DNA of 64,000 nt, from NCBI GenBank assembly GCA_037893245.1, contig JBAIAA010000074.1:2976001-3040000 (forward strand), written 5' to 3'. This document shows positions 17,212-62,420 of this stretch, piece by piece. The notes beneath the pieces are model-generated. The model was not told where the DNA came from. It was given only the letters and a program-made list of their open reading frames with translations, and did not search any database. Positions within the stretch are counted from its first letter, which is position 1; each line of letters starts with the position of its first letter. The DNA is from Crossaster papposus. Lineage: Eukaryota; Echinodermata; Asteroidea; Velatida; Solasteridae. The translations under genes were made by a program, and so were the position numbers.

Positions 17212-20200
17212 TCATCTGGTCGGTGGATTAATGAAGAGGTTTGGATAGAATCGGATGCCTTCTACTGATTCATCTCGGCACGCCTGGCCTGCTTCCTCTG
17301 CTGCTAACAACCTGTCAAAGAAGCAAATGATATAACGCAAAACATCACAACAATGAATTATTAATAAATGAAAGAGGAGGCACAACTGAAAATTAAGGAT
17401 GCACAAAACAAACAAAAAGCATGGGGGGGGGGGGGGAATAAATAGGGGTTCCTGAAACCTTGTCTTTGGCTTCGCCTCCGACTTCCGAATAACTGAGAAG
17501 CAAATAGAAATGAAAGCAAATGAAAATATTCGAACTTTTAGATTCATATCAATCAATTAAATGTTTCTGAAGCACTACAAGCCCCAGAATGTGGCTGAAG
17601 ATTTCGCAGTTGGGAGCCTAAAATTGCCTTAAGCCAAAGACGAAGACAAAGCCAGGGATTCAAGGAAACAAAAAGCCCATCCAACCCACTCTACTTCTTT
17701 GTTAGGGTGGGGGGGGGGGATAAATGATGGTTTGGGGTGATAAAACTAGGAACTCACCTCCCCTTGGCCAGTAGGATAGATATGCCGGTGTTTTGGGAAA
17801 GCTCGTCTGGGCTCAGCGAGTTCTTTGAAGTCAGCTGAAAAAGAACGACAAAGGCAACATTTTCAAGAACAATGAAGTTTAAATGACTTAGATTATCACA
17901 AAGCCCTGTCACTTGTGTTATATCATATGTGACCCAGCACAAGTAAATGAGACACTTTGCAGCAAAAATAAAAATTGAGATTTTGAAATCAAATCTCAAT
18001 TTTCATTTTTGCCGCAAAGTGTCTCATTTACTTGTGCTGGGTCACATATTTTTGTATGGCGGTTTTCATAATGTCTCTTTTTATATAAGCAACAATTCCC
18101 AAGGATGTAGTCAAGTCCATCACAAGTCCCTGTAAGTCCCTGCAAGTCCATCACAAGTCCTCCAGTTCCAATTCAAATCACAAGCTATTCAAATGAGCTT
18201 GTGAAAGGACTTGTGAAAGGACTTGCAGGGACTCGAATACAACTCTGACAATTCCCATCTGTTCTTCTGTATTTTTTACAAATAAATAAAAATGAAAAAA
18301 TTACAATGCTGATGACTATTTTCTGTCGGACACCAGTACACATACAAATTACGATGAGGACTTTAAAAATTATTTCTTGTTACCGTTGGTATATAAATAG
18401 GAATAAGGATAAAACTGCTGCAAACCGCTTACTGGCTGGAATGATCTAAAATATACAAATCAAATAAGTTAACAGTGCCTAATATTTCGATCTTAACAAG
18501 ATCTTCTTCAGAGACTAAATGACTGTGTACAAGAAACAGACATGTTTCTTGTACACAGTCATTTAGTCTCTGAAGAAGATCTTGTCAAGATCGAAATATT
18601 AGGTATATAAATAGGACAGCCTTCAAGTGGTAATTCACAATCCCCAGTTTTACCAGTTCTGCCGTCTGTTTGATGATGGCTTCCTCCCCCTTGGAGACCA
18701 GTTCAATCACCATGACGCCGCTACTGAAAACCCGCAGCCTCAGAGGTAGTCTAAGGGCCTCAAACTGTCGACAAGCATCCACGAGATCGTCAGGAGAAAG
18801 TAGCTGTTTCAGAAATTAAACAGACAAAATGTTCAAAATAAGCATTCTTTATCAAAGTGCAGAGGGAAAGGTAGAGGAATAAGGCCAAATGTTGCCCGAG
18901 AGTCTCAAATTTTTAAATGGGGTTTTTGTTTCAAGAATTTTGTTGAATCTGCATTGCAGTAAGTTGTCACTTTAAAGCAAGGCACCCTACTAACATGTTG
19001 TTGTAATACCCTGATTATTAGATCTTGGACCCTACCTCCATTCCTCGGGCCCTGTTGATTCTGCAGTACGCATCAGTTAAGGCCATCATGCCGCCACTCT
19101 CCTGCCAAACGTTAATAATCATGAGAGACAAAAACCCAAAATTACAAATGTGAAAAAGTTGGGAGGTGGGAAGAATTTTTTTAAGGGGTGAATTGGCCAG
19201 TAGTTTGTGACAAGGGTGTCAACAGAAGAGGGTCAAACCAGATGTTTAACCAGTTCGCACTGGGATTATTTTGACATTGACAGGGTCAGGCGCAGGATTG
19301 CTTTTTATGAACCTTAATCAGAGACAGGTTCAGGCCAGCATCTGTGGGTAGCACACCCTGATATTTCTTGCCTCGCTCCCTGCGAGCCGGTCGCTCCCTG
19401 CGAGCCGGTCGCTGTCAGATATCTCCGGCATTGATCGCGACGTGTTTATCCACATAGATCTTACCCAGGATGTTTCCACAAACTATTTATCTTATTGCCT
19501 TTTCGCCATGCAAACCTTGAAATCTTAAATGTTTATTCGTCATTTGTCTTGAATTCTGTAAAAACTTTGCGTGTATACACGTCAAGTGACGTGAATTGGT
19601 TAAGAGACGGGTTGGAGTTAGGGTTTATGTTGGGGTTAGGGTTAGGCTAGCCCAGGTTGGCAACGTTCTTCATTGCATTACGACTGACGTTCAGGGTATC
19701 AATGTATCCTGCCATAGCAAAAAAAAATAAAACAACATTTTTTCATATTTTTACCTGATGAAGGAAGCCAAAATCCCGCTTATGGCTTCCTTGTGTCTGG
19801 AACTACAGATCGTCATGGGTTATTAAAAGTGAATGTGTCTTTAGGCAACTTATTTACAGAAAATAAATTGCAAATCCACCCTTTTGGACGTGAACATCAC
19901 GTACGAACGTCCGACGTGCGTACGTGGGTACCCGGCAGCCGCGCCGGCCTGCCTCGCGCTTGCACGCTATGGCAGGATACATTGATACCCTGGACTCCGT
20001 CGCGTTGTACACAACGGAGGAGTCCAACCTGGGCTAGGGTTGAGCATACCTCTATTGGTGTAGTCAGTACATCTGCCAGCTGTTTGGCCAATTCCTTATG
20101 GTACTTGGTGCCCGTTCCATGCGTCTCTCTGGTGACAGGGTTGGCTATGCCAAGGCTTAGCAGATAGGACTTAAATTGCACTGTCTGAAAATTGAGAGAG

Positions 20201-23200
20201 AACAATCTTCATTTTGTTGAGTACACATTAGACATTTAAACTGCTGTAGTCAACAGTTTGAATCGAGTCTTGGAGTCTTGGTGCTCATATTTTAAGGCCC
20301 GAAGACGTAAAAAGCTTTTGTTGGAACGAAAAACGTGAAGAGTAAATAACATCATTATCATCATAGTCACCTCATCCTCTGTGATACTTCCTTGCTTGTC
20401 CTTAATCTTGTTGGCTATTGTTCTGGACAGATCAACCATTTCTTTTGCCTGTTCAAAAAAAAAAGGCGACAAAAGTTGGGTGCAAACAAACAATTAATAG
20501 ACGCAAACAACTTGCCTAGGTTTACATTTTATGTATTTTAACCATAACTCCCTACCCTATTTTTCTAACATATAACCTGAATCCTGCAAAATCCCGCAAT
20601 TCCAAAGTGTTGAAACTCAATGTAACTTGAATCCTGCAAAATACTTTATTACTGGTGACCACTGCCATGAATCCTGCTGAATCCTGCAGTGGGTTTACCA
20701 TTGAGCTATAAGCAGCCGAACATGGAACAAACAGCTGCTAATAAGTGCCCTATTACAACCAGGGTCTGCACACATGACCCTTGGTATGCAAAGGTTTCCT
20801 TTCCATGACACATAACTTACACCTTGACTGAAGCTCTATAAAGAATGTGCATAGAGCACGAGCAGTGTGATAAGTACAAAGTAACAAAGAACCCAAGTAA
20901 CCTCAATCCTGCAAATTCATCCGGCATTAGTTTAGGCCTTATGATCTGGATCCTGCATCATCCTCCAGTGGCAAAACCTCAATCCTGCAAAATCTTGCAA
21001 TTTTCTAAAAGGATTTTGGAGGATTCGGGATGGTTAAGGTTAAAAACAACTTCTAGATCTTGACAAGTGACTCCAAAACATGAATCAGTATTTGTCGTCT
21101 TACTGACACAATGTATCAATGGATCTCCCATATTGGACAGATTATTTAAACCACTATTTCGGAAATCTAATGCACTTACTTTGGTCATTAGCTTGTTTAA
21201 GTCTTCAAAGGCCTTGAAGAAAAAAAGAAAAACAAAAAATGTCACAAATGTTCACGACAAATAAACAGAACAAGGTGATGCAAACGTACACTTGTCAACA
21301 AAGTTCTGCAGAGAATTCCAATTATCCATGATGAAGGGCCCATATTTATTCCTTAAGATTAAACCAAAAAACAACAACAGTATTTGACCATATAGTGAAA
21401 TACTGTGAAAGAAATGGCAGGTGTTCCTTAACCAGTTCGCGCCGGGATTATTTTAACATCGCCGAGCCGACGGGCGGGATTATTTTTAACGAAACTCGAT
21501 CCGAAGCGGGTTGAGGCTGATAGTGCCGGGAAGCACACCCACGCATTTCCGGCCTTGCGCGCTGCTGACATACATTTCAGAACTTGAACTTGGCGTGTTT
21601 ATGCGTCATCCGTTTTGAATTTGGGGAAATCTTTGCGTTTATATACGTCATCCGGCGCGAACCGGTTAAAGGTAGAATCCATCATTTTCAGAAATTGAAA
21701 ATTTTTACTTCCGAATTATTAAAAAATATCTTACTTATTCGAAAGTAAATAATGATTGTAGGCATCCAGCAAAAATGATTGCACTAGATATCTTATAATT
21801 GTTCCGAAAAATTGAATTTTATAAAAACAAATTGGCGATCGCGTAAAAACTCAAGAACAACATAATAACCACTGCCCGAGGCCGGTTGAAAACGAATGCC
21901 GTTTTTCTTACTTTCCTCGCTATTCATGATTGTAAATCTTTGAACAGGTCAGTTAAACGATATTTACTAAGGGAATAAATGTGTGTTCGAGAGGTTTTAA
22001 TCACTCTGTTTAATACCGCTTGGAGTCTGGGTGCTGATAATTACCCGAGCCGAAGGCGAGGGTAATTATCAGCACCCAGACTCCAAGCGGTATTAAACAG
22101 AGTGATTAATACCGACCGAACACACATTTATTCCCATTCATAAATACCTTTTTTGTAAAATTCAGCCCCAAAAGCCCCGGAAATCAGGGAAAATTGTCGC
22201 AAGTAAATTTCGGTGTTTTGCCATTTTGTGTGTGTCAAATGACATGTTTCCGCCTCAGTCGCTCTACACAATACATGTAATAAAGCGTATTTACTAGGAA
22301 CCAGACTATTACTGCCATTGGCAACCTCGTTCCCAGGGTGTCGAGCTGTACGCGCCCAACACCACCTGTTCTTACTAAAAAATAAAGTGAGCCCTGGGGA
22401 CGGGTACAATGCGACATCGCGTGACGTATTTTGTTGCCAGTTGGTTTTAAACACTTCCAGCCATGTCTTTATCGTCCGTTTAATACCGGCCACGTGACGG
22501 GCTCTCGACCAATAGGAATGCCTAAACTGTCCCAGGTATTTATGAATATAAAATACAACCCCAAAATCCACCCATTCATGATAATTCAAGCAATTACCAA
22601 TGGTGTATCCTACCTTTGATTACATGTAGTCTGCCATGCTTACCTTGGATATATTTTGATCAGTGTCCCTCCACTTTTTCTCCAGGTTTCTCTCAATGCC
22701 AACAATACCAGCATGAATAGCTTTCGGCTGTAAAGCAAATCAGAGTATTATTACTCTCAAAACCACAACATTTCAGAAAAAAAATTAAAAAAAAAAAAAA
22801 AAAAACAATCGGGACTCAAAACCACCACTAATGATAATATGTAATACATATAAGTACTATTGTTGTGCTAAAAAGACAAAGTGTGATTTATTTTAAGTGA
22901 GTGGATTTTAATTTAAATGCTAAAACAAACTCTGCTCAGCACGGAAATTCTTTTCTAAACATTAGGCCCATTTCATGAAACTGCTGGAGCACGAAAATTT
23001 GCTAAGCACACAATCTATTTGCTGATGCCAACAAAAAATTCACGGAATTTATTCTGCCTACAACTGGTACTCAGCTAATTATTTGCTCAGCCCCCAAATG
23101 ATAATGATAATAATGGGGCTAATCATCCTTACTGGCAGCTGTGAAGCAGAATTGCGAAGGATGTCACATTATTACCCCGGTCATTGGGCAAATAAAACAT

Positions 23201-26200
23201 TCCAAATACCATCTCAGCTCCCTGGGGAGTATACAGCTCGATGCTGCCATTTCGGCGCAAAGCAGCTAAATCAACCACAATAACCATCTCTGCCCTCACA
23301 GGTACCCATTTACTCCTGTCAGGGATGTAGTTGAGTCCAGCACAGGTCCCTGTAAGTCCCTGCAATTCCCTGTAAGTCCCTGCAAGTCCATCACAAGTCC
23401 TCCAGTTCTAATTCAAATCACAAGCTATTCAAATCAGCTTTGACAAAAGAATTCCTTTGTCATTGTTCAAAGGGCACACGTACCATAGTCCCACGCCAGA
23501 CTCGAACCCACAACCTGCAGCGTTACCTACAGATTATAAATTCAACACGAGATCACGGCACTCCACAACCCCTTGTTGTGTCTTCTGATCTGTACATCCA
23601 AATGTGCCTCGCATTATCGTGTAGTTTGACCCACCTTTCCAGCTGCTTTGGGGACTTGCATGTACTCCCAGCGCCTTTTGGATAATTCCTCTGTCACGCA
23701 CCTGAAAAACTGTAGACATAAGCAGGTTTTAATGATAAGCAACTACACGTAATATGATACACACTGCCAACCTCCCACCTCTAAAACGGTACCTTCTTCT
23801 CATTGTCTTCTCTCTACAGGTTTCATCAGGCTTGCAAGCTACAGTGCCTTGGGCGCTTTTGAGATATACTTGGTTTCATTACCAGAAATACAGGGTGAAC
23901 CTAAAAAAACAAAACCCACCGGAAAATGGCCATAATCCCGAAAGTATATATTTGAAGTCAATATCAGAAATAGGAGCTACAAGCTTTCTTCTGACACCTA
24001 CATCGCAGGCCTACGGTCACTGGTAACTGAGTACCATTGTCTTGAAAACCATAGGCAGATTTCAGAAATGTCCAAATCAATAATTTTGTAAGCCACATGG
24101 AAATGAACCATCCCTCTTCGCGGTCAGTGGTGTGCATCCAACCGCGTCTTTATGTGGCCCAGGTTCAATGATCGACATTGAATATAAACAGGTTATAAAC
24201 AGGTTATAACAAAGGGAATTATGTTCTTGTTCTTTTCCAGGCGACCTTATTTGCCTACACGAAGATAACAACACGCACACCTACATGTATTTGGACATTT
24301 CTGAAATCTGCCTATGGTTTTCAAGACAATGGTACTCAGTTACCAGTGACCGTAGGCCTGCGATGTAGGTGTCAGAAGAAAGCTTGTAGCTCCTACTTTC
24401 TGATATTGACTTCAGTTTTTCCATGAAATATATACTTTCGGGATTATGGCCATTTTCCGGTGGTTTTTGTTTTTTTAGGTTCACCCTGTATATAATAATA
24501 ATAATAAGCATTAATTCTGAAATGGTGAGACACAGAATGTCTTAATATTGAAAATATATATATATATATATATATAATCAGATTGGTACATATATCTTTA
24601 AATTTGTAACCCTGTGGAGACATTTGGCACTGTTTCTTCCCTTGTTTCTGATCTTACATGCAAGTATTTCCCCATAGACTTTTTGTACACAAAATGCCTT
24701 GTGGAGACATCCTCTTTAGAATTTCCTTGTTTAGATGTTTTAATTTTTTTGTCCTTTTTTTGTCTTTCTGCGGTCTCCACAGGGTATTGAATTTAAAAAC
24801 AAGGATTAATATTAATTTGAGTTTGCTGCACAGTCACATGTTGGGATATGATGATCAATGACTAAACCTGAATACGGAAATTAACCCTAACAATCCCCAT
24901 CCAGTCAAACTCCAACACCAGAATTTGTTGGAATCTGTTAGGATGGTACTAAGCTAATAGTCTTTTACCCTAGGTATAATATGCATACCTCCGGATTCAA
25001 AATCTAATAGTTTGTGTGTACAGTTTGCCATAAGGTGTTGGTAGGATTTGCCAGGATGGTATGGTTCCTAGTAAATTACACTATGTTAGGGTTAACGTTT
25101 TTACCTAAAAATCAGTAAAATTAATATTCTGGTAGAAAACTATAAAGACGATTTTACAATAGAAGGAATTTTTTTTCAAGAGATGTTACATTCAGAGCAT
25201 TTCAGACAATGATAAGTTATAATCGAAAACCTTCAATCTAAACTGTCACTCATATAAACATTTTAACCAGTTTGCGCCGGAGTACATATATACACAAAAA
25301 GTTTTCCCCAAATTCAAAACAGATGGCGCATAAACACACCACAAGCAAGGCCGGGAATGTCTGTCAGCAGCAAGCAAAAACGGAAATGGGTGGGTGTGCT
25401 TCCCGGTACCATCAGCCTGTACCCGCCTTGAATCGAGTTTCGTTAAAAATAATCCCGCGCCTCGCCTCGGCTCAAACTGGTTAATAAGTTGACAGTTATG
25501 CTTTGTGAGATATTGACAAGCACAAACCTCCGTTTCCCCTCCTTCCTTGAAGGTGAGTTGGATGAAGGAGTGAGCACTCATCATGACGGGTCCAGGGGGT
25601 TTGTTGGGTGGAGCTGGCTGGAGATGAAAGGCTAACCGAGGACTGTGACAAAGAAGATTTTGACAGACATAGAAGTAAATGACCATTTGTCAGCAGCACA
25701 AAGGTATACAGTGGAGTGTCGTGGCCCGGCGGTTAAGAACTCGGTTTTCTGTTCTGCAGAGCGTGAGTTCAAGTCTCGTTGTCGACACATGTGTTCTTAA
25801 GCAAGGCAATTAAACCACTATTTGCTTCGTCCTTCAGATGGGACGTAAAGCTGTAGGTCCCGTGCGTTGTGTAATGCACGTAAAAGAACCCAGTAACACT
25901 CTTCGCTAAGAGAAGGGCTTTGCCCCGGTGTTCCTGGCAGCGCCTCGGAATAGGCAACTAGATTGATGGCGCTTTACAAATGCAGATTGGATTGGATTGG
26001 ATTGGATATACAGCTGTGTCTTTTTGTGCGTTGCACTAAATACAATGTACTCCTCAGAGGGATAATCAGAATACAGTTTGTGCTGTCCAACAATGTTGTT
26101 TTACTGTTGCGAGGGAATAATTGTGCAGTAAACCGACTGTAGTGATGAGGATGTACTGTTTTGTGCACAGTATGTATTATATAACTGACATACAGCTCCT

Positions 26201-29200
26201 TGTCATTTGATTGGTGGAACCCACCTCATGTGACATTAATTATTACTCCAATTCACGTCGCAGCTGAAAAATGTCCTATTCACCATGGAATATTATTGCT
26301 CGTTAAGATCTGGACTTTTCCATTTTACTCGGCTTCGCCTCGTGAAATGAAAAAAGTCCAGATTTGACTTTGCGATATAATATTTCATTTCACTTTGAGC
26401 CACTCAATAATTGTACACAGTATCTCCCTAGAAAAATTCCTGTCCACTGTCCACTGTCGTTCACAGGGTAGTGCATAGACAACCTAAGACAGCACAACCC
26501 GTGAGTCATTTTCTGCTGTCTAACAACTGTGTGTACATGAAGGTTGGTAAACACCGTCAATCGTGGACGGGGCATTATCCGACCGTCTTTCCTCTTTTGT
26601 TTGTACCTCAAAGTTTTCGGATGACCTCCATAGGATTTGTACACGATTTGGAATCGTGGACGTTTTGTCAATCATGGACGTACCCCCTTTATTTTATTTT
26701 TTTGAAGACCATGATTGGCGGTCAATACATACGCACTGAAGCTGTGCAGAATTGTGTTCCATATAGGAAACACATGCAAAGGACAATGTATTACATTGTA
26801 TACACCATTTGCTTTTGCTGTAATTTTCTTTTTTGTCACTTTTGGCACCTTACATGCATTTCTGGCCGAAAAGACATCACCTCTGCACCACATTCCTGTT
26901 TAACCCAAATTTGGTTGCAATAAGATTATTCTACCAAGTACATGTGCCAAGAAACGAACAGGCCTACCCACTTTGGCGTGGCAACAAATACAGTTCATAG
27001 TTTAAGACTGTTTTACAATATTTCCAATTGACAAGAAACAAAGACTCCTCTTCAGAAGCTCTGTGTGATGACTAGACTGATGACTAGGCCTGGCTACCAC
27101 CATTAATTGTATTGCTCGATTTAAGAGTTGGCAAATACCTTTTCCCTCTGCCTGCTGGAACCTCTTCAGCATAAAGAACAAGAGATAACGGCAGAGTTAT
27201 CAGTGTGGTCTGCAAAAAAAAAAATTAAAAAAACCCCAAAAAACTAACAATATTAAACAGTTTTATTACATTTAAGATAAAGTAACACCCTGTGGTAATT
27301 CAATTTAGCTAGTTCTGAAAGGAATCGGAGGGAACTCAACTTTTCGTACAGTATGCTCTGCCTGTCGTCAGGAGACAGAGATTCCAACAATGGTGAAGCG
27401 GGGTTATAATGAGCCTGGAAGTGATGAAGCGTAAGGCGGGCCATCAGATTACAGACCGTCGGGTACCAGGCCTTATAAGCCAATCCTTTCCCTCACTCGG
27501 TATTCAGCCAGAAGCCAGCCGGTTACAGAACCGTGAAACTCGGAACAGATGAATCAGGGTTTGAACAAAAGGCAGGTGAAGTTCAAGTCTGGTCATTCTT
27601 ACAGGATTATTCGGCTTGAATGGCAGGACTCAGAAAAAAACAACACTGCTTTATTAACCAGTTCGCGTCGGGATTATTTTAACATCACCGAGCCAAAGGG
27701 GCGGGATTATTTTTAACGAAACTCGATCCGAAGCGTGTTCAGGCCGATAGTGCCGGGAAGCACACCCACGCATTTCCGGCCTTGCTCGCTGATGACAGAC
27801 ATTTCCGAACTTGAACTTGGCGTGTTTATGCGTCATCCGTTTTGAATTTGGGGAAAACTTTGCGTTTATATACGTCATCTGGCGCGAACTGGTTAAAGTA
27901 GAGGCAATCTCTTTAAAGCTCACAGTCATTGTTTGCCTGCTGGAAGATTAGTGCCTTGCCAAATAGCTTCCTTTGTGGTGAGCCACAGCTTGGTGATCAA
28001 GACTGGTGGAGTTAATCCTGCCCGATCAGTTCAGTCCAAAGTGCCAAACCCTGCGAATTACCAGGCGGGCTAGAACAGTCTGGGCAGGGATTGGTATTTG
28101 ATGGTCTGCCTTTAGAAGAGTGCAACTCTGCAGGGGTACTCATGCAGAGCATGGAAGATGCTGGATGGTCACTGAGGCGTGTCAGTGTGACCCATAGGGG
28201 ACCCATAGGCTGGGGAACTAAGTGTCCTTGGGTATAGGAGACCCTTCGAACTGAGAGGTGATGATGGGGTGCCAGATGTTGCCGATGGAAAATCTGATGT
28301 CTTAAGGAACCGTTTTGTGCTCGATGATTTCAATGGCTTCTCTGATGCGGCGGGGGTAACGGCATTAGATGCTGGCGATGAGTTCAGCCTAGCTTCAGTT
28401 GATCCGATGGTCTTTGATGTGGGAGTGTTTGACAATTATTTGCGAGTCTGAGCTAATTCTGCAATCTCCGTAATATTTGGAACGCAGTGGCTATTGTTAC
28501 GGCAGTTGACAATCTGATTCCTCGACGCGACATGCCCAGCCTAAAAATGACAATACTCAGGACCTTTCACTCTTGAAACCCGACTATCGACCAGTCTGGT
28601 TCCAAGAGCAAAATCCAAATACTAATATTTCCAATGTCAGGCTGGGTATGTCAGAGAATCAGATCAACTGCCGTAACAATAATTGTCAATATTATTTATT
28701 ATTTATTTACCTGTTGTACAGAGTCTGTCCAAATCAAGCGATGACTCGTAAGTGTGATGATCCCTCCATCAAAAGCGGTCTAGTCAGCAAAATGAAATTG
28801 CACAAATTAACAATACAATCTTTCCTATCTCCATGGTATAGCCTCGACCCTCTGTAATCTGCACACCTAACGCTCATGCACGCGCGCGTGTTGCCAAACG
28901 TAAATTAAATGTAAATGCGTAGAAATAGGACCGCATGTATTTAGGGGGTCTTTAGGGATTCGATCAATTCTCTTGTTTAAGGTAAATACGGTGGGGAGTC
29001 TTTTTCTGTGATGGTGATATAAATCAGTACTGTCGATTACTCGATACTGTCTGTGACTGCGTGACTGTTGTGATGAGTGCGAAAACGTGACTTTGCGTAG
29101 TGTTTACGAATACGAAGCTGAACAAACCTTGTCTGTCCCATCGTGAAGTCTAACCCCATGCTGCTGCTTCACTTGGGTCTCCCCCTTTAAAAGTTGTCCA

Positions 29201-29223: not shown

Positions 29224-29631
29224 TTAAAAAAAGTACTGTAGATATAGTCATTAGAAGTAAAACAAGTGAGAGATTGCATTGGATGGAGAAATTCACACAC
29301 AGGTGCAGCCCGCCCTCAATCGTACAAATTTGGTAACGCTTCAATATTTTTCCCACGTTGCGGCAGGCGCGTCGTGGGGAATACATCGATGTCACATTAC
29401 ATGTGGGAATTAAATGTCACTACCAGCGCGTGTTGTTCCCCGGCCAAAGAGAGCTAGCTAGAGATAGAGTTGGGTTCAAACATTTTGTAAAGGGGTGGTT
29501 TAAAAAGGAGCAAAGACATTTTTACAAATTTTGTACTGAAATTGAAGTTTATTTTAACTGTATTTAGATTTAAATAGTTAAAAACGTTTAAAACCAAGCC
29601 GAATCTGTGGGTGAGGTGTTATAAACAATAA
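29224..29631. promoter_or_regulatory. Region upstream of VPS36
   Basis: No exon recognised. It should hold the VPS36 promoter and 5' UTR. No core promoter motif is claimed. Confidence 0.3.
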
Positions 29632-29749
29632 TTGAATGCTTTATTTTCGTGGTGTACGGACGTAAGCCTCCCTCTGTGATTTATGGAGCATTTCATTTTT
29701 CCTCGGCTTTACGTATACCGCGCGCACCACTCGAAAAACTGCATTCAAT
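29632..29749. mobile_element. 118-bp foldback element
   Basis: TTGAATGC..TTCGTGGTG at the left is matched by CACCACTCGAAAAACTGCATTCAA at the right. GC-rich centre. Confidence 0.6.
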
Positions 29750-29869
29750 AACATTCTGACAACGACGGTGTACGCGGCCCCGTGTGTCAGTCGAGCGTAC
29801 AGTTTATAACTTGGATAAACTTGTCTTCAAATCGCTCTGTGGATCGAACTAGTAGTACTAGTAGTACTA

Positions 29870-29912
29870 CTAGTAGCACCAGCAGTAGCAGTAGCAGTAG
29901 CAGTAGCAGTAG
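29870..29912. repeat. (CAGTAG)n-like microsatellite
   Basis: Repeated AGTAGC units just before MITE copy 6. Confidence 0.85.
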
Positions 29913-29948
29913 CAGGTATGATTACAATTTTTGTTTGTTAATGTTAAT

Positions 29949-30196
29949 TTAACCAGTTCGCGCCGGATGACGTATATAAACGCAAAGTTTTCCCCAAATC
30001 CAAAACGGATGACGCATAAACACGCCGGCGCCAAGTTCAAGTTCAGAAATGTCTGTCAGCAGCGTGCAAGGCCGGAAATGCGTGGGTGTGCTTCCCGGCA
30101 CTATCGGCCTAAACCCGCTTCGGATCGTGTTTCGTTAACAATAATCCCGCCCCTCGGCTCGGTGATGTTAAAATAATCCCAGTGCGAACTGGTTAA
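29949..30196 (+). mobile_element. TTAA-ended MITE, copy 6
   Basis: Full length. Its final TTAA (30193-30196) is also the first TTAA of copy 7. Confidence 0.92.
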
Positions 30197-30464
30197 CCAG
30201 TTTACATCGGGAGCCGTGTACATACGCAACGTTGTTTCCAAATTCCAGGATTCAAAACGGATGACAGATAAAAATGTCATGATCAAGGCTGGAATTCTGT
30301 CACTCGGCTACTGGCTCGCACTCGCAGTCGCAGCGAGCAAGGCCAGGGTGTGCTACCCACAGATGCCGGCCTGAACCCGCCTCGGATTGAGGTTTGTGAA
30401 AAAGAATCCAGTGCTGGGCCTTGGTCAATGACAATATACTATAATCCTGGCGCGAACTGGTAAA
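30193..30464 (+). mobile_element. TTAA-ended MITE, diverged copy 7
   Basis: TTAACCAGTTTACATCGGG at the left, GGCGCGAACTGGTAAA at the right. An older subfamily with extra CTCGCAGTCGCAGCG sequence, like the copies at 19246 and 60984. Confidence 0.82.
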
Positions 30465-30540
30465 AGGGCACTACTGTATGTCCTGAAATCGCCCAAGGGG
30501 CTACAAAAATCGGACAGATGGATATTTAAAGTCACACAAC

Positions 30541-31398: not shown

Positions 31399-31399
31399 C

Positions 31400-31600
31400 T
31401 TTACTCAGTTCGCGCCAGGATTATTTTAACAAAACTCGATCTGAGGCGGTTCAGGCCGATGGTACTGGCAAGCACACCCACGCATTTCTGGCCATGTTCG
31501 CTGCTGACAGACGTTTACGGCATTGCTCGTGTTTAAGCGTCATCCGTTTTAAATCTGGGAAAAAGTTTGCGTATATATACGTTCTCCGGCACTAACTGGC
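31400..31600 (-). mobile_element. TTAA-ended MITE, diverged copy 8
   Basis: TTACTCAGTTCGCGCCAGG to CCGGCACTAACTGG; internally shortened, with both TTAA ends mutated. Confidence 0.78.
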
Positions 31601-31611
31601 TTTGGCTGTGA

Positions 31612-31690
31612 CTTCGGCTGTTGCTATGCTGTTGTTATGGGCGGTCATTGTCCGCCCTTAGCAACAGGATAGCAATGACCGAAGTCACAA
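31612..31690. mobile_element. Hairpin element
   Basis: GTGACTTCGGCTGTTGCTAT is matched in reverse by ATAGCAATGACCGAAGTCAC around GGGCGGTCATTGTCCGCCC. Confidence 0.7.
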
Positions 31691-31853
31691 CCAAACCCAA
31701 CAATTTGAACATGGCCAGATTTTGCAGTACAAATGTGCGTGCCAAATTATTTGCGGCTGCTTCGTGACTCCCATTAGTGCATCACGAAACAGCCTTAGTT
31801 AATTCAATAATTCAGCCTTAGTAAATTCTTTCTTCTATACAGTCTCTTCGCCC

Positions 31854-32058: not shown

Positions 32059-32069
32059 ATAGATGCATA

Positions 32070-34762: not shown

Positions 34763-35284
34763 AAGAATGGTAGAGTTCATCTCAGCACTCCTAGAATCCT
34801 GGTGCTGGTGTAAAAAAGCAAAGGATTTTTGAAGGAACAAAGAAGGTATTTGAGAGCCACAAATCTTGAGGCAAAATATTTAAGCACCTTCCTCTTTCAC
34901 TAACATTCAGCTACACCCCAACAACATTAAAAACCAATCAATTTTAAGGGACTGTTTTGCACAGTTAAGAATTGCTTTGTTAATGTTATTGTCCATAATT
35001 TTGACTGGAGGTGATTGATATGCCAGCTGCACACTCAGTGTACCGGTACCTCTTTTGCCTATTGATGGTTGTCATACATGTAGTTTTTGCATTTGTGATT
35101 AGGCAGTTTTTAAAAGTTTTTATTAAGCCTAAAAGATCTCAAATCCTCCAATTTTAATACAATTTTGCTCACACCCTAAGAAGTTAAGGTTAATGCCCTC
35201 ACCTTTGGCTCGGGCATTAACACGTCCAGGCCAATGAGCCGATTTTAAACGTAAAACTGGTCAACCACATATTTATTCCGTGTG
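34763..35284. other. No gene seen
   Basis: Contains TTAAGGTTAATGCCCTCACC and GGCTCGGGCATTAACACG around 35185-35222, a short inverted pair. Nothing else recognised. Confidence 0.3.
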
Positions 35285-39002: not shown

Positions 39003-39092
39003 TTAACCCTAACTCCCTACACAACAAAGGAAGTTGGAGGATTTTGAAGGAATTGTATTGTTCAATAACAATGGTGAGGGAGTTAGGGTTAA
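39003..39092. mobile_element. 90-bp TTAACCCTAACTCCCT element
   Basis: The left TTAACCCTAACTCCCT and right AGGGAGTTAGGGTTAA are exact reverse complements. The interior holds one reversed decamer pair, AATTCCTTCA|AAATCCTCCA. The smallest member; it lies 60 bp upstream of the first TDO exon seen. Confidence 0.88.
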
Positions 39093-39151: not shown

Positions 39152-53023
<13,872 letters not shown>

Positions 53024-53176
53024 AGGTGAACAAATGTTTTGGGAACTTTTTTTAAGGAGGGGGGGTTTGACTCGAATGTCAAAGGTTCCAATTGAACTTG
53101 ATACATTTGTCACACAGAATTACTGTATTGTAACAGGGCAAATATAGCAGTACATGAACATCCAATATTACAAGGG

Positions 53177-53201
53177 AATCACCCCCCCCCCCCCCCCCCC
53201 C
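53177..53201 (+). repeat. Poly-C run
   Basis: About 22 C residues 150 bp after the TDO stop; likely hard to sequence and length-variable. Confidence 0.85.
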
Positions 53202-53223
53202 CTCCCTCCCTACAAAAAGATCA

Positions 53224-53647
53224 TATGTGACCTGGCACCACGAAATGAGCGGAAAGTCACACATGGTCAAAACTAGTTATTGGCCGAAACGTTCATTTTT
53301 CAAGTTGGAGGTCGGTTTAGAGTTAACCTTTTTACATAATAAAACTTCTTTATCATATCCCTAAAGTGTATAGCTCAATTAAAACTCTAAAGTGTGTTTT
53401 TTTGGTGGCTGAATTGCAGTGAGTGATAGTATAGTTGACACAGTTTACGGACTTTGAACTCTGTTTTCTCAAAACAAGGGAGCATGACTTCAGCTATTTC
53501 AAAAGAGTATAGCGGCGGCTAGGAATAAGCTACAGCAACACACACTACATCATTTGAAAGCTGAGGACTTCTTTCTTCTAGGAATATTATAATGCCAACT
53601 TTTTTATTTTGCGACTTTCCACCCATTTCGTGGTGCCAGGTCACAAA
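53224..53647. mobile_element. TATGTGACCTGGCACCACG MITE, copy 3
   Basis: ~424 bp, matching 37704 across the interior; the last bases read TCACAAA instead of TCACATA. Confidence 0.9.
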
Positions 53648-55306
53648 TGAAGCAAGATATGGGACGAAGAGAACCTCCCCTTCTTTGTGGCGGTCATTGT
53701 GCTTGCGGAATGTTTCTCAGGATTTTTTTAAAGGTTTTTAGAGGGTGGTGTTTAGGTAACAATAGTCTAGGGAGTGTATAGGTATGGGGGAGTCCCTCGG
53801 TCCCATATCTTGCTGGGTATAACAAAGATCATAGGCCCAATGTAATTTAATTCAATTCGTTTTGCTTTGCACAGTTTCGTAACAAAATATGATGGTGTCA
53901 CCATTTAGCTTCTGGTAAATCAGGGCAAGAAATCCCCATGTCCTTGTTAGTTTATTTGTTGGTTTGTGCATAACAAACGTTTAAAGCCAGTACACACTGT
54001 GCGGGAGTGAAGCAAAGGTCATGTTTACTGAGGCAGTTTGTAGGTAAAATCTCCATCGTCTCTCTGTGAAAGAAATTTTTTGAAGCATTTAAAAAATGTT
54101 GGCACTTTTTGCCGATATGTGCTGGTTTCACTTTTAGAATGGAGAAAAATCTAAACTATTTTTCATAAAATGACGTAATTACCACACAGCTGTTCAAATT
54201 GCCTCACATTGGAAATCAATTATCCATTATTTAAAAAAACTAAAGTGAAGTGTAACCTAACTGTGCAAAGTGGCCCATGACACATGTATGGTTGATGTTT
54301 TATGTCCATAAGTAGTTGATGGGTGGTTTGTTGCTATGCAAGGAATAACAGGCTGGGCGGTTTGAGAACTAAGAGTTTACATTTTCCGCATTCCAATTGA
54401 ATAGGCCGTATTATTGATTGTTGAGGGCGCTGTGCTCACGGTATTTGGGGATATAATTAAAAGTGATTAGGAGATAATTCACGTCAGTTTGAATATTCTT
54501 ACAGCTCAAAATGTTTTTTCTTTCTAATATTCAATTTATAGATAAAGTAAAGTTACTAAAACTACTTCAATAAAAGAGATTTTGCCTGTGTTGGGTACCC
54601 AGAAAATGGCGTCTTACAGCGCCCTCGTGCGGCCAAAAATACGGCTCATTCCTGTTGTAAAGATATAATCCGCGATAATGTTTGTATTTCCACCAGTATT
54701 TTCCAGGGTCTTAAAATTTGTATGTTAGTAGTAAAATAGATGTGTAAAAAGTAGTTTATTTTGCTATTTTAGCTAAAAAAAATTGTATAATGTGAGACAA
54801 ATTAAATGTAAAATTTACTAAACTGTGAATGGCCGATAGGAAAACACAATAAAATCGTGTAATTATGAGTTATTCAATAATTTTCTCCACAGAAGTATTT
54901 TAGCAGTATACATGTTATGTGCGTTCACGAATTGACACTTGTGGGGTACCAGGAACAAAGGGCGACGATGGTACCCTGCAAGTCCTCTCTTTAGAAATAG
55001 GTACAAAGAAAAACAAAAGGGAAATAAAGTCGAACAATAGAGGTACCCCACAACCAATGGCGTGCCAATTAGCCTGTACGAACATTTCATATATACTGTG
55101 GACCTTCTCAGGATGCGGTTAGAGGTTACGGATTGTAGACTTGCACACGTCCACAGTCCGTTTTGCCCTTTCTGAAAAAGAGCTTTAGAGGAAAAACAGG
55201 GTTATCTGTAGAAATATGAAGGGGAACAACTTACAGCCTCAGAATCTAAATTTAGGGTTAAAACAAATATGGAAGCAAGACAATTAATTATTTGGCCAAC
55301 GTTTTC
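53648..55306. other. Intergenic region between TDO and the protease
   Basis: No exon found. A weak foldback lies at about 54930-55075 (TTGTGGGGTACC ... GGTACCCCACAA). The rest is AT-rich and unassigned. Confidence 0.45.
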
Positions 55307-55516
55307 TTAACCAGTTCGCGCCGGATGACGTATATAAACGCAAAGTTTTCCCCAGATTTAAAACGGATGACGCATAAACACGCCACGAGCAAGGCCGGAA
55401 ATGTCTGTCAGCAGCAAGCAAGGCCGGAAATGCGTGGGTGCTTTTCCCAGTACTATCGCCCTGAACCCGCAACGGATCGAGTTTCGTTAAAAATAATCCC
55501 GGCGCGAACTGGTTAA
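55307..55516 (+). mobile_element. TTAA-ended MITE, copy 13
   Basis: Both TTAA ends present. About 30 bases of the usual right part (CGCCCCTCGGCTC region) are missing. Confidence 0.9.
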
Positions 55517-56676
55517 CTTCATGAAGACAAAGAAATGTCCATAGTACGTACATGTATAGAATGGGTGTGTGTATAATGGTGCGAAATACGGTACCCTCTG
55601 GAGACGTGAACACAATAGGGACAATGGAAGTGAAAAGGTCTCCACTAGGAATTTCACGAATTAGATTTTTGGATTTTATTTAAATTACCTAAAAACTAGA
55701 ATTAGGATGTGGGTTAGGGTTAGTGTTTGGGTTAGGGTATAATTAGGGTAAAAATTTCAACCCAGAAATATAATTGTGGTTAAAATGGGAGCATTTTGAA
55801 AAACGTGCTCGACTTTCTAACCATTTTGTACACGAGAACAAAGCCATGTCTGCACAGTGATACAAAAATGCGAATGTACGTGTTTATAAGTTGATCCTGC
55901 AAATCATGAGTGAAAACGAAATGGCACTAACTGACAGAATTACAAGCTGTGAAAACTACAGTACTTTGTTGTAGCTACGTAGCCCATCTTGTGAAGAATA
56001 AGGGACAGAGAAGGTAAAGTGCAAAGCCACCTCCGTCGTTCCACAAAGTGGGGCGAGGTTGCCTGCGAAGCTACCCACGGTGGCAAAGTCGCCCACTCCC
56101 TGCAAAGCGGGTGATGGTGACCTGGCAAAGGGAAGGCACCTCGTTTGGTAACTTTAATCCAAGTAAATATACCCAAAAGTGGTGTTTTTATTAACTGATT
56201 TAGTTTGCCTATTTTGATACAAGTATTAAAGCATATATTTTTTTCTATTTGTGGAAGTTATTTGTTTAAGAGTCTTCTTAAGACTGTTTTTAGTTTGTTT
56301 CAAATTACATGACTGCCATCAATTAATAGTATAGAAGACTTTATTTCGGGTTGTGTAAAAGTAAGAAAAGTGCTTTTAAAGCAGCGCAGTATTTTTGTAC
56401 GTAATGGTTTTGAAATGTAAAGTCTGGATTTCTGAACTGGAATTCATTTCCTCTTTACAGAGTATTAAATAGCATCCAACATTTTGAGCTGGACCGTAAC
56501 AAGCATTTTTTTGTGTGTAACTAATTTTAGCTGTATAAAGATTTGTTTTGATAAAGGCATTTCATCCCGGCATTGAAAAGATAGTCGGATTATATTTCTG
56601 GATTGTCTACAACTGTTTATAGTGTACCAAATCTGCACAGCAAATCGTCATTAATACTAACTTTCTTAGCTTTGTT
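55517..56676. other. No gene seen
   Basis: GTTAGGGTTAGTGTTTGGG near 55712 is a short repeat-like patch. A 78-codon minus frame (55940-56176) lacks recognisable motifs. Confidence 0.35.
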
Positions 56677-57121
56677 AAAGGTAGGATACACCATTTGAAG
56701 ATATCAAAAATAAAAAAACTACTGAATTATTAAGAAATATCTTACTTATTTGAAAGTAAATATCTTACTTATTTGAAAGTAAATATCTTACTTATTTGAA
56801 AGTAAATAATGATTGTAGGCATCCAGCAAAACGATTGCCCTAGATATCCTTCAATTGTTCTGAAAAATTGAATTTTATAAAAAAAGAAATCACGATTGCT
56901 GGACGGCGATCGCAAAAAAAACACCAAAAGAACCACTGCCCGACGCCGGTTGAAAATAAATGCTGTTTTTCTTGCTTTTCTCAGCATCCATTATTGTAAA
57001 ACTTTGGAGAATTCCGTTAAACGATATTTACTATAAAATACACCCCCCCCCCCCCCCCCCTCTCCCTCAATCCACCTATTCACGATAATTTTGGCAATTA
57101 CTAATGGTGTATCCTACCTTT
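56677..57121 (+). mobile_element. GGTAGGATACACC MITE, copy f
   Basis: Whole copy with a small internal tandem of ATCTTACTTATTTGAAAGTA (three times) and a ~20-base C run. Its right end CTACCTTTAA runs directly into TTAA MITE copy 14. Confidence 0.9.
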
Positions 57122-57362
57122 AACCAGTTCGTGCCGGATGATGTATATAAACGCAAAAATTCCCCCAAATTCAAAACGGATGACGCATAAACACGCCAAG
57201 TTCAAGTTCGGAAATGTATGTCAGCAGCGCGCAAGGCCGGAAATGCGTGGGTGTGCTTCCCGGCACTATCAGCCTGAACACGCTTCGGATCGAGTTTCGT
57301 TAAAAATAATCCTGCCCGTCGGCTTGGCGATGTTAAAATAATCCCGGCGCGAACTGGTTTAA
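57120..57362 (+). mobile_element. TTAA-ended MITE, copy 14
   Basis: Full length; a sister of copies 3 and 16 (CGCGCAAGGCCGG, GTCGGC.TGGCGATG variants). Confidence 0.92.
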
Positions 57363-58477
57363 GAAGTGTGACATAGTATTTGTTTATTGAATTTGTAATG
57401 AATTGTAAGACTAATATTGTGGTATTTTTCAGAACTGTACGAGCTTTTTACCTCAGTTTATTATGTACTCGGCTGTTTATTGCTTAAAGCACAAGGCTTG
57501 TAAGTGTATTGATAATGATTGACATGTAATGTACATTTACACGTTTCACCAATTAATAATGCATAGCGTTATAGAATTGTATAGCATATAAACTAGGGAT
57601 ATTGCACAAGATTTAGTTTTAAAATGTGTTTAAAGGGATCGTAGACGTTTGGTAATTACTCCATAAATTAATGGCAATAAAAACTTACTTGGTATGAAGT
57701 ACAGCAGCTTTGGATAGTATAATGCATTTGTAGAAACTTTTCACTTCGAAGTACTGCAGTTATAAAAAAAAGATATCACTTTTTATCCCCAAAAATTTGA
57801 ATCTGAGAAGCGTTACTGCAGTGACGTTTCTCAGATTGTGTATTCCAATGCAAATTATTCTTACTGCGTGGACATAACCGCTCCAGATTTTCGAAAATAT
57901 CTGAAAATCGCTATCACCTTTTGAAATGAAATTTTTACAGGTGAGTTTTATGGTATATATCTATAACTATATAGGATTGAAACAAACAATGGGTTCTAAT
58001 TACCAAACTGATATGCTCCCTTTAATATCACAAGTGTCGACCAATTATTTGGAAACATTTTGTTCAGTGGTTCGTTCTCACTTTTTGAAGTTGCGATGCC
58101 AGTTTTTGTGTCGACTACTGTGTTGAATACAATGAAGTACTATTAGCCTCCTATTTGTAATTTTATGAGCATAAGAAAATGAATAAAGTGCTTTTTAATT
58201 GTTGCACAAAGCTTTCCAATCTTTAGTTTTAGTGTTTATGATTTGTTTCATGTTTAGGCAAGCATCTTATTCTTTTTTCTGTTTTTTTAATGTTAATTTT
58301 TATTTAAACTTAAAAGTACAAACATCAATTTCAGCATTTGTTTTGAAGTAAAACAAAAAAACGCTTGAATTTGTCTAAAAGTTACATGCAAGTTTTACTA
58401 TTCAGCATTTGAAAATGAACTAAAATGGTAGTAAAATGCTTGTCTATATGCACAGCTGAATAGTTTATAATTACACA
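57363..58477. other. AT-rich, no gene seen
   Basis: GAGAAGCGTTACTGCAGTGACGTTTCTCAG near 57805-57835 is an imperfect hairpin. No other structure recognised. Confidence 0.35.
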
Positions 58478-58898
58478 ATTGTGACCTGTCATCACAAAAT
58501 GAGCGTAAAGTCGCACGGAGTGATTTCCCAGTACGGCCAGTCAAAATTTGAAGGGGTGGTCGATTTTGAGATTATGGGTTTTTTAAAGACTAAATCCCCA
58601 ACAATCAATTCCCAATTTTTCAGGACGATTAGAAAAAAAGAAAACAAAGTTTGAGACAATTTTAGGTATCCCTTTCTTTGCGCGTTTACACAATTTCTCG
58701 AAAGAAATGCCCGTTTTCTCATAATCTCTGTATTAAGACTCTAGACTAAAAAATAAAAATATAAAAAATATTGAGTATCAAACCTCCAAGTGTTGTATAC
58801 CATTGGAAAGCTCTGTTTCCACAGAATTTAGAAATACCCATATCTCAATTTTAGATTTTGCCGACTTTACGCTCATTTTGTGATGACAGGTCACAATT
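58478..58898. mobile_element. TGTGACCTGTCATCAC MITE, copy 1
   Basis: ~420 bp; AATTGTGACCTGTCATCAC and GTGATGACAGGTCACAATT are exact inverted ends. Confidence 0.9.
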
Positions 58899-59176
58899 GG
58901 TCATAAAAAGATGGTAGTATTAAATGCTTAATAAAATGGTAGTAAAAGCAAATGGTAATTTTTATTAACACTAATTCTACCTCCATGCCTTAATTAACTC
59001 CCTATTGTAATTTACTAGGAACTACACCATATGGCAAAGTGTTGTAATCTGATTCTGGAGTTATTATATTGTAAGACTGTCAGATTAGAGTTATGAATAA
59101 ACGAATTAAATTGCAAATGCTATACAGATGCTATATGCTTTAAAAAAAATGGTAGCAAATGGTAGTTAACTCCCTG

Positions 59177-59877
59177 GGTCGTATGAATAAAGTACAAGTA
59201 TTTACTTTGAAGTAGAAGCATTAAGGAAAAGCAAATGCTTCAATTCGTATGAATAAAATAAAGTTTTACTGTTTAGCATTTACTGGCTGAAATAGCAGTA
59301 AATGCTTTTTACTTGCAATTGATTTCACAGCCGAATGGTTTATAACAAGAGTCTCTATTGTGTGTACGATACACACCCACGCATAGACGCTCGTAAGCTG
59401 ACGGGTGTTGAAATGAAATCGGAACCTCAAGTTGCTGCTTCGCAGTCATTATGCCCTTTTCTGTCTCAGCAATATTGCAAGAAATTATCGGCCATCTATC
59501 ATCTCATTTCCTTCCCCAAAATCAGTAAAACTGCTTGTATTTTAATCCTAGACAATCCATCTTCCATGTTCATACCTTTTCCTGCCTAACCACATTATAC
59601 AAAAGCTTCTATTTTTTATATTAGTATTTACTTCTCTTTTTTCAAGGTAGCCCGGACCCAACCTTGAAAAATTACGAGTAAATACTGCAAATCTAAAGCA
59701 TTTACTCATTTTTATTCATACCAAATGGAGCAAATACTAATATTCTAGCAAATGCTGGAAATTAAAAAGTAAATACTTTAGGTCTTTAGCAAATACCTTA
59801 CAGTAAAACCTATTGCTTCATTTTTATTCATACAGTTGGTAATAAAAGCAAATGCTAGTTTTTATTCATACGACCCA
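59177..59877. mobile_element. Element with GGGTCGTATGAATAAA ends
   Basis: GGGTCGTATGAATAAA at the left and TTTTATTCATACGACCC at the right. Inside, AGCAAATGCT/AGCATTTACT words recur in both directions, and TTTTATTCATAC recurs near 59715 and 59818. A further copy of the end lies at 59913. An unrelated patch at 59330-59640 may be a nested piece. Confidence 0.65.
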
Positions 59878-60359
59878 GTGCCCTAACATACCTTGTGTAA
59901 AAGACTCGGTTTAGAGGTCGTATGAATAAAAAACCCATTGCAAATGCTATAGTAAATGCTCAAAAAACATTGTAATAAAAGCAAATAAGAGATTCCAATA
60001 AAACCGGTTGTTAAAGTTTGACCGAGTGGCATTGTTAGGGTTATTATGAGCCAATGCGACTTCTTGCTGTTTTAATTGGAGATTTGCCAATACTTTAGGT
60101 TTTCTCTAAATTGGACATGGACAAGGAATGCCCTACTGGTTGGTACCCAAATTTGAGCATGTTCAATAACGCATTCATTACACAAATCTTTTTATTACAC
60201 TTTTAGCTTTGTATTTAAAAAACATGTGAAATATTTTATTTAAGCCATTTCATATTTTAAAATTTCTGAATATAAACTTTGGCATACTTTTAAGCAAAAG
60301 CCAATTATTTCATTTTAAAAGTTAATACAATTGAGAAAAAAAATATTATGAGAAACAAA

Positions 60360-60593
60360 TTATTTCGCTAGATAGAAATCTTGCGATTGCGAAAAAACCA
60401 ATAACATAAGAACCACTGCCCGACGCCGGTTGAAAACGAACGCCATTTTTCTTGCTTTTCTCAGCATCCATGATTGTAAAACTTCGGACAGGTAAGTTAA
60501 ACAATATTTACTATAAAATACAACCCCCCCCAAAAATTGTTTTCACCCATTCATGATAATTCAAGCAATTACCAATGGTGTATCCTACCTTCA
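60360..60593 (+). mobile_element. GGTAGGATACACC MITE, copy g, 3' part
   Basis: Right two thirds of the family, ending CCAATGGTGTATCCTACCTT; the left end is missing. Confidence 0.82.
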
Positions 60594-60983
60594 AAATAGA
60601 TTTCAAGTAAAAATAAGATAAATTACTAATTAACACACAGATAAGTAGTTAATAGCTTAATAGCATTGAATTCTAGCATTATTATGCTTTTCAAAAATAG
60701 ATTTTGTTTTAATACAAATATTACTGTGTTCCAATTGTGGGCGTCAGTAATTTTATTTTGTGCACAAATAACCCGCCCCATGGGAGCCAAATTATTTTCC
60801 GGTGGCCAATAATTAGACTTTTGTTAAATAATTAAATAACAAAAAATAGGTAGATTTGTTAGTTCGATGTCTTATTCAAAGTAAACACCTTTGCAATGAC
60901 AACGGAACACTTGTTTTTATTGTTATCATAATGTGCAACTTATCAAGATACAGTATAGTTACAAAACCTATGTTATCAATTTG
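60594..60983. other. No gene seen
   Basis: AT-rich, no recognised repeat. Confidence 0.3.
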
Positions 60984-61224
60984 TTAACCAGTTTGCGCCG
61001 GAGGACGTGTATACATGCCATATTTTTCCGAAAAATCAAAACGGATGACTGATAATCATGCCATGAGTAACTCGGGCGAGGCTTGAAATATCTGCCAGCG
61101 ACTAGCTCGCAGCTGGGTGTGGGTGTGCTGCCCACTGACTGCTGGCCTGGGCCCGCTGGGGTCGATGTTCGTGAAAAATAAACCAGCGCCTAGGTTCCAG
61201 TAAAAATCTGCGCGAACTGGTTAA
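60984..61224 (+). mobile_element. TTAA-ended MITE, diverged copy 15
   Basis: TTAACCAGTTTGCGCCGGAGG to GCGCGAACTGGTTAA; older subfamily. Its last TTAA is shared with copy 16. Confidence 0.85.
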
Positions 61225-61462
61225 CCAGTTCGCGCCGGGATTATTTTAACATCGCCGAGCCGACAGGCGGGATTATTTTTAACGAAACTCGATCCGAAGC
61301 GTGTTCAGGCTGATAGTGCCGGGAAGCACACCCACGCATTTCCGGCCTTGCGCGCTGCTGACATACATTTCCGAACTTGAACTTGGCGTGTTTATGCGTC
61401 ATCCGTTTTGAATTTGGGGGAATTTTTGCGTTTATATACGTCATCCGGCGCGAACTGGTTAA
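61221..61462 (-). mobile_element. TTAA-ended MITE, copy 16
   Basis: Full length, reverse orientation, starting at the TTAA that ends copy 15. Confidence 0.93.
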
Positions 61463-62193
61463 ATGAATTTTAGTTGACCAATCTCTCCATGATTATCCGA
61501 GTTTAAAAGCAGGGGCAAACTTAGAACTGCTTTAGCACAAAGTAAAACCAGCTTACCAGTCACAACTCCATTTGGTGTTTAGTTGTTGTTAGCTTAGCAT
61601 AACAATCCCTTGAAATTTAACCTGAAAGTCACTAAGGGCTTTTGTACTTAAATCCATGAAATTGGTCCCAGATTTTAGGCACAAAGATCTGAGGTAATAA
61701 ACTAATAACCAAAATTAAGAGAGAAAAAAATTAATTTGAGAGTGGCATGATTATTAAAGCTGCCAGCACGGTAGGTACCGTCAAATCTTTGGCAAACACT
61801 AAAAGCAAGTCATCTTTAATTTGCCACAGCTCAATTGAATTGCTTGTCCAATAAGCCTGTTCGGTATTCCAACTGTACATGTGCTCGTCAATAATTGACG
61901 ATATTTTTGGGGGGGAAAAACATTCCCATAACATTTCATCGAATGCGTGAACAAACACAGGTTACTAGCAAATTACCAAGAGATTGTCGTATTCTGAAGT
62001 AACGTAAAAACAAACAAAACGGTTGGACAGCGAAGTGTTTTCAGGTGTGTTGTGTGGCCAAACTTGTGTTTTTATCGTCCTTTCAATTGCAAGAAAAATT
62101 GCACAGAATGCAGAATCTGTTACCATTTCCCCCCATGTTTGTTTCCACCCCAAGAGAAGAATTGCCGAATCTTGTTGTGCACATGCGCAGTTG
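61463..62193. other. No gene seen
   Basis: Open frames of 75-100 codons overlap on both strands with no motif. Words such as AGTCACTAAGGGC and AAATTGGTCCCAGATTTTAG near 61626-61675 hint at an old decayed repeat. Confidence 0.35.
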
Positions 62194-62201
62194 GAATATG
62201 G

Positions 62202-62420
62202 CAGGGTTGTAGCCAAGTCCCTGCAAGTCCTTTCACAAGTTTGTGAAGCCAGTCACAAGTCCCTTCATAAAGGCAGTCACAAGTATTGGATGAACAATGA
62301 CAAAGGAATGCTTTTGTCAAAGCTGATTTGAAAAGCTTGTGATCTGAATTGGAACTGAAAGACTTTTGATGGACTTGCAGGGACTTACAGGGACTTGTGA
62401 TGGACTCGACTACATCCCTG
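62202..62420. mobile_element. hAT-like element with decamer units, copy 3
   Basis: CAGGGTTGTAG at the left, CTACATCCCTG at the right, and GAATATGG as an exact 8-bp direct repeat on both sides (62194-62201 and 62421-62428). In reverse the interior reads GAGTCCATCAC, AAGTCCCTGT, AAGTCCCTGC and AAGTCCATCA. The best-preserved member. Confidence 0.92.

Follow-up and report, generated by a model that had tools for sequence, protein, structure and literature searches.

Head-to-tail pairs of 10-bp units at set positions in piggyBac-like elements of Crossaster papposus as putative transposase-binding sites

A 64,000-bp stretch of the Crossaster papposus genome (assembly GCA_037893245.1, contig JBAIAA010000074.1, positions 2,976,001 to 3,040,000), referred to here as the window, contains short non-coding mobile elements that carry repeated 10-bp units. 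The elements with TTAACCCTAAC ends are piggyBac-like miniature inverted-repeat transposable elements (MITEs) inserted at TTAA. The elements with CAGGGATGTAG ends are hAT-like MITEs, which contain a variable 10/11-bp AAGTCC array. In the TTAA elements, the units mostly occupy set positions, the half-sites of a pair are mostly spaced 10 bp, and the letters of the units change jointly at the two ends of an element. The sequence patterns suggest that the units of both types are probably binding sites for the transposases of two unrelated superfamilies, which would mobilise these elements.

A preliminary description of the window had reported 10-bp-spaced units in ten elements, and had proposed that the interiors be compared with shuffled sequence. 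Self-match was scored as 8-base windows with at least six matches at lag 10, against 300 dinucleotide shuffles of each element interior. The observed score was never equalled (0/300) for the interiors at 20538, 39003, 40198, 44800, 49086, 18100, 23320, and 62202. It was equalled by 1/300 shuffles for the element at 24881, and by 7/300 for the copy at 45378, the weakest of the ten. An excess at lag 10 is therefore present and the units are real, with nine of the ten elements at or below 1/300. In a window-wide count, in which most tandem repeats were masked by a hand-picked list, 18 lag-10 events fell in 2,880 bases of elements and 34 in the 58,382 bases outside them, which places the signal in the elements. 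Outside, the 22 other lags between 8 and 30 gave a mean of 24.7 events (standard deviation 5.8; highest 38). A 10-bp periodicity general to the window was rejected.

The genome was also searched for two occurrences of ATCCTGC, a word specific to subfamily B (see below), separated by 0-28 bases. Among the matches listed, 60 of 100 fall in three local satellites; the other 40 places have a lag of 10 (31 places) or 33 (9 places), and none has any other lag from 7 to 35. Eight of the nine listed lag-33 places lie within loci L080, L086, L087, and L088.

Both end types mark high-copy short elements. Exact genome matches number 4,614 for the 15-base TTAA-type end TTAACCCTAACTCCC and 2,443 for the hAT-like end CAGGGATGTAGNNRAGTCC; the reversed control gave 0 in each case. 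TTAA flanks both ends of all six complete TTAA elements in the window. Their tips read CC[C/T]T after TTAA in 8/12 cases, and CCAT (twice), CCCA, and CTCT in the rest; CC[C/T]T is a hallmark of the piggyBac superfamily in the accessible part of PMC2872659. The earlier assignment of the two end types as piggyBac-like and hAT-like thus fits both the ends and the target duplications (TTAA and 8 bp).

Ends of TTAA elements were collected from the window and 89 further loci, and 72 pattern matches were reduced to 49 after repeats were dropped. The elements have a left end, TTAACCCTAACTCCCT, and a right end, for example TTAACCCTAACCAYCC. The left end contains a pair near bp 41-57, mostly head-to-tail. 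The first left core (TCCNNCA or its equivalent) lies at bp 41 after TTAA in subfamilies A, B, and E, at bp 38 in the 90-bp type, at bp 36 in D, and at bp 48 in C, where the pair is weak alone (142/500 shuffles do as well). At the right end, a half-site begins at bp 17, and its partner is preserved to a varying degree; in the exceptional subfamily D, the right outer half-sites start at bp 16 and are spaced 11. A second pair of the right end lies on the opposite strand, faces inward, and ends 34-42 bases from the tip. Further pairs lie inside, with seven pattern-fitting sites in the 40198 element and eight in L086. The preliminary description had spoken of pairs or short runs in all elements; arrays are found in the CAGGG type, and the TTAA type has mostly pairs in set places. 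The smallest TTAA elements, of about 70 bp, were not counted as keeping a clear pair. The element at 49086, noted earlier for having TACTAC instead, is no outlier: its TACTACA occupies the slots that hold TCCTGCA elsewhere.

The letters of the units covary at both ends of one element while the layout is kept. With one window element taken for each of the subfamilies A-E, the left, right-outer, and right-inner units resemble one another more within an element than between elements. By best half-site identity, only 2/14,400 label permutations match the observed sum, and by mean identity 4/14,400. The separate slot pairs gave 2, 1, and 5 of 120 permutations by best identity, and 4, 1, and 5 by mean; all of these figures are only a guide, because the slots were set only after inspection and the inner units were picked visually.

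The unit blocks were further compared with their flanks, with the reservation that the sites were picked by pattern, so that the pattern columns are alike partly by construction. Between sites, the block is 0.78 identical in subfamily A (flanks 0.34 and 0.29) and 0.67 in subfamily C (flanks 0.27 and 0.31). In subfamily E the values are 0.44 versus 0.27 and 0.31, and the first half-site alone stands out. Subfamily B was represented by L086, in which the block reaches 0.86 and the upstream flank is alike too (0.53), so that longer modules appear to have been duplicated there.

Ten held-out loci, out of twenty chosen, were taken after the slot rule had been formed. The predicted left slot has at least 7/10 matches at lag 10 in seven of them (L100, L101, L102, L103, L105, L107, and L109). 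The other three are L104 (6/10), where a 90-bp element was read starting from the far end; L106 (4/10), whose half-sites are spaced 11; and L108 (3/10), in which one half-site is missing. Compared by eye with L107, the left pair of L108 has lost exactly one 10-base half-site. L103 and L105 form one subfamily with new letters, AATGCA in place of TCCNNCA, and also reach 7/10 at lag 8. The 56 left-type ends form 17 non-redundant groups. In seven of these, the slot has at least 7/10 matches at lag 10; at any other lag from 6 to 16, at most two groups score as high.

The hAT-like elements were studied in 26 full copies from 30 loci (L039-L068). The 8-bp target duplication matches at 8/8 positions in 16 copies, at 7/8 in nine, and at 2/8 in one, next to CAGGG ends. 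On the 5' strand, AGTCC recurs at spacings of 10 (80 times), 11 (69), and others (14), and a strict 10-bp spacing, as first described, does not hold for this type. The number of AGTCC per copy ranges from 4 to 23; on the 3' side, the spacing is 24, 12, 10 in 15/26 copies. The units contain AAGT, which is reported as the site of the Hermes BED domain (PMC10368747). Together with the variable 5' array, this points to subterminal repeats with minisatellite-like growth. The hAT-like elements would be an ordinary, though highly variable, case of such repeats.

The TTAA elements were compared with piggyBac itself, whose left end carries at bp 17-33 the site of a dimer of C-terminal cysteine-rich domains (CRD), as described in PMC7351741. 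In four piggyBac transposase families of this genome with readable 5' ends (628, 669, 505, and 572 aa), the best 5'-end palindrome among those centred anywhere between bp 20 and 60 has its centre at 24.5, 24.5, 24.0, and 24.5, respectively. Among 500 shuffles per end, 9, 0, 99, and 91 equal these palindromes, so that two of the four are weak alone. The 3' ends, read in three families, contain no palindrome above the shuffles. The palindromes of the four families (L011, L019, L024, and L036) differ in their letters. From its position, the right half-site beginning at bp 17 (bp 16 in D) might take piggyBac's functional place with a different symmetry. A head-to-tail site would require two domains in one orientation, such as tandem domains in one chain.

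Coding partners were searched for in both superfamilies. The genome search for piggyBac transposases gave 1,336 candidates, of which 116 were scored and 30 loci were read. Three families, of 505, 628, and 669 aa, have readable pairs of terminal inverted repeats (TIRs), and a fourth, of 572 aa, has a single readable end; TTAACCCTAAC is not among these ends. A TIR pair was looked for and not found in L009, L010, and a 503-aa piggyBac copy. An TTAACCCTAGCC end in L024 was rejected as a transposase end, as it is part of a short element that lies in the flank. In L089, two TTAACCCTAACTCCC ends enclose 2 kb; this stretch was also set aside, and by eye its ends look like split halves of a 90-bp element. 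For the hAT-like type, 110 transposase hits were found, and no CAGGG end occurs in ten downstream flanks. Among the best 40 of 3,400 candidates, the element at 20538 has only relatives of similar length, at 39 other places with 78-86% identity. The piggyBac transposase genes on G000 contigs C863, C669, C80, C336, and C592 occur every 11-12 kb with near-equal scores; this regular spacing looks as if they were part of large tandem arrays.

As the loci examined yielded no transposase gene with such ends, we infer the binding, the responsible domain, and the benefit of extra pairs to transposition from the arrangement of the units. In the TTAA elements, the head-to-tail pairs would occupy the place of piggyBac's CRD-bound internal repeat. 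As the half-sites are one helical turn apart, two small DNA-binding domains could lie adjacent on one face of the DNA. The left pair and the outer right site may position the enzyme at the two tips, and additional enzyme may be loaded by the inner convergent pair together with the other internal pairs. The letters might differ between subfamilies because site and binding domain evolved jointly within an unchanged layout of the complex. AAGTCC in the hAT-like elements would be a subterminal repeat for N-terminal BED fingers, and the 5' array would gain and lose units by slippage. It is also possible, though doubtful, that a piggyBac lineage swapped the palindromic site of the CRD dimer for head-to-tail double sites, and then repeatedly switched the letters (TCCNNCA, CCTNNCA, TACTAC, AATGCA) with the 10-bp step and the layout kept. 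The DNA-binding domain that recognises such double sites would probably be a tandem or an asymmetrically stacked one. If so, one genome would hold several specificity groups of elements.

Several observations weigh against transposase binding. No transposase gene with matching ends was found in the 30 piggyBac loci, the 503-aa copy, or the ten hAT flanks. The right outer site is the least regular: counted from bp 14, its matches at lag 10 number 6, 6, 5, 4, and 8 of 10 in subfamilies A-E, and 7 of 10 in L086. At bp 17-33 the second half-site is thus often poor (4-8/10 in A-E), and in four of these five right ends the inner pair is the clearest at lag 10. Only 7/17 left-end groups reach at least 7/10 in the slot; the groups of the L005, L079, L072, L075, L085, and L089 ends have no left pair, contrary to a strict rule. 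The known internal repeats of piggyBac are palindromes, and in A-E the best palindrome of the right end never lies at bp 24-25; the right end of piggyBat likewise has none, and a palindromic site is not universal. Many elements seem to carry more pairs than a transpososome needs. The slots, as well as the inner units of the letter permutation, were defined after inspection.

A separate regulatory protein, encoded by the element or by the host, might bind the units instead. It could be a VANC-like anti-silencing factor for the dense motifs of its own family, or a host repressor in an arms race. The likeness within elements, the drift between families, and the gain of repeats all resemble VANC targets, as far as these are described in the accessible text of PMC5735166, and recognition of the tips does not need internal pairs far from the ends. 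However, the outermost pairs keep a set distance to the tips and lie close to the position of a known transposase site, and even the 90-bp elements still keep one pair; this alternative appears unlikely. Functionless copying, in which replication slippage or unequal exchange multiplies the units, fits the hAT-like 5' arrays of 4-23 AGTCC as opposed to the 3' spacing of 24, 12, 10 in 15/26 copies, and the L086-type units with their alike upstream flanks. It predicts neither pairs in set places nor units on both strands at the right end, and the unit flanks are unrelated in A and C, which makes it quite improbable as a general explanation. The preliminary description had offered protein binding and a unit-copying process side by side. 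The set positions, the one-turn spacing, and the joint change of letters make binding sites for a protein the best-supported reading. Copying fits the hAT-like 5' array and partly the L086 type, but does not explain TTAA pairs that keep their places across subfamilies with different letters.

A further alternative is that one protein binds both types, or that they form one chimeric family; in its favour, GAGTCCATCACA occurs in both. With 12 bases, this is the longest word found when one hAT-like copy was compared with six TTAA elements of the window. However, it is found only in subfamily A; the other five TTAA elements share 7-10 bases with the hAT-like copy, and sharing of 12 bases is reached by 13/300 sets of shuffled elements. 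The TTAA spacing is mostly 10 and the hAT-like spacing is 10 or 11, and the ends and target duplications are unlike. One factor for both end types was accordingly rejected as weakly founded, and a single protein that binds both kinds, or a single chimeric family, is highly improbable.

The elements of the window are listed in Table 1. The feature at 45378, earlier counted as one more element, is by eye a broken copy from the 40198 family and corresponds to its right end. The element at 40198 splits a 20-bp minisatellite (39802-40201 and 40610-40742), whose tandem unit contains TTAA. The element at 44800 is flanked by 92%-identical repeats (44721-44811 and 45293-45383), which comprise about 80 bases of flank and the first bases of the element; the repeated flank is perhaps an exon edge.

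Table 1. Mobile elements and element fragments in the window (coordinates within the 64,000-bp stretch)
Feature	Position	Strand	Details
TTAA element, subfamily A, 416 bp including TTAA	40198..40613	+	left pair core bp 41 after TTAA; right outer half-site bp 17; convergent inner pair; at least 4 further internal pairs
TTAA element, subfamily B, 506 bp	20538..21043	+	units AATCCTGCAA
TTAA element, subfamily C, 488 bp	44800..45287	+	units AAACCTNNCA; left pair bp 48, not 41
TTAA element, subfamily D, 215 bp	24881..25095	-	units ATCCTNNCAA; left core bp 36
TTAA element, subfamily E, 444 bp	49086..49529	+	units TACTACN; slots as in other subfamilies
90-bp TTAA element	39003..39092	+	two left-type ends; one pair, minus strand
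Broken copy, right end of subfamily A element	45378..45545	-	by-eye comparison with A right end
71-bp TTAA element, L073/L077 kind	35123..35193	-	one unit, pair-like by eye only
hAT-like MITE	18100..18247	+	8-bp target duplication ACAATTCC
hAT-like MITE	23320..23420	+	left end and 10-bp array; right end looked for, not found
hAT-like MITE, complete	62202..62420	-	8-bp target duplication GAATATGG

Other features were also noted in the window. An element at 49866-50102 has 53-base inverted arms beginning CAGGGGCCAATTTCATAGAGC. Another family, with ends near TTAACCAGTTCGCGCCGG, lies at 21428-21669 and 45537-45776; it occurs in several loci, and some copies adjoin other elements. An open frame at 5538-6368 contains a C-type lectin domain (E 1.3e-15). 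The single Rfam match at the gathering threshold is a tRNA (11622-11693, minus strand, 35.3 bits).

The preliminary statement that no described family resembles these elements was too strong, as both superfamilies are already known to have subterminal repeats bound by their transposases. What looks like the new aspect of the TTAA elements is that the sites are head-to-tail and their letters switch while position and spacing are nearly fixed; the design itself is known. In the part of the journal literature that was searched, no counterpart turned up for a piggyBac-type end that carries head-to-tail pairs and switches their units. If the units are transposase-binding sites, the subfamilies might be a natural record of a transposase and its sites changing specificity under a constant assembly layout. 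As the subfamilies are co-resident in large numbers, specificity switching of the piggyBac type could be tested by binding or excision with matched and mismatched ends.

The ends of piggyBac have the layouts 13+3+19 and 13+31+19. The TTAA elements share with piggyBac the TTAA target and CCCT tips, and their putative sites may correspond to its internal site at bp 17-33 of one tip and its remoter site at the other (PMC7351741). They differ in their head-to-tail 10-bp half-sites, in many more internal copies, and in letters that vary among co-resident subfamilies. The left end of piggyBat likewise contains three copies of a binding module, set 44 bp apart and running inward from the tip, although these consist of GCGGGA and an imperfect palindrome (PMC11707139). 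The coral CMITE elements are also TTAA MITEs; they belong to different families, and their inner region seems to be constrained (PMC2872659). Their interior is conserved and their ends are variable; the Crossaster TTAA elements have conserved ends and variable unit letters in a layout that holds. The VANC/VANDAL system of Arabidopsis similarly has arrays of short motifs that are alike within a family, drift between families, and grow in tandem (PMC5735166, accessible text), whereas the outermost pairs here keep set distances from the tips. For the hAT-like elements, the nearest likeness is to Hermes, in which short AAGT repeats are crowded near the tips and their arrangement differs between the ends (PMC10368747, accessible part); the Crossaster elements differ from it in having a tandem 10/11-bp array of variable length.

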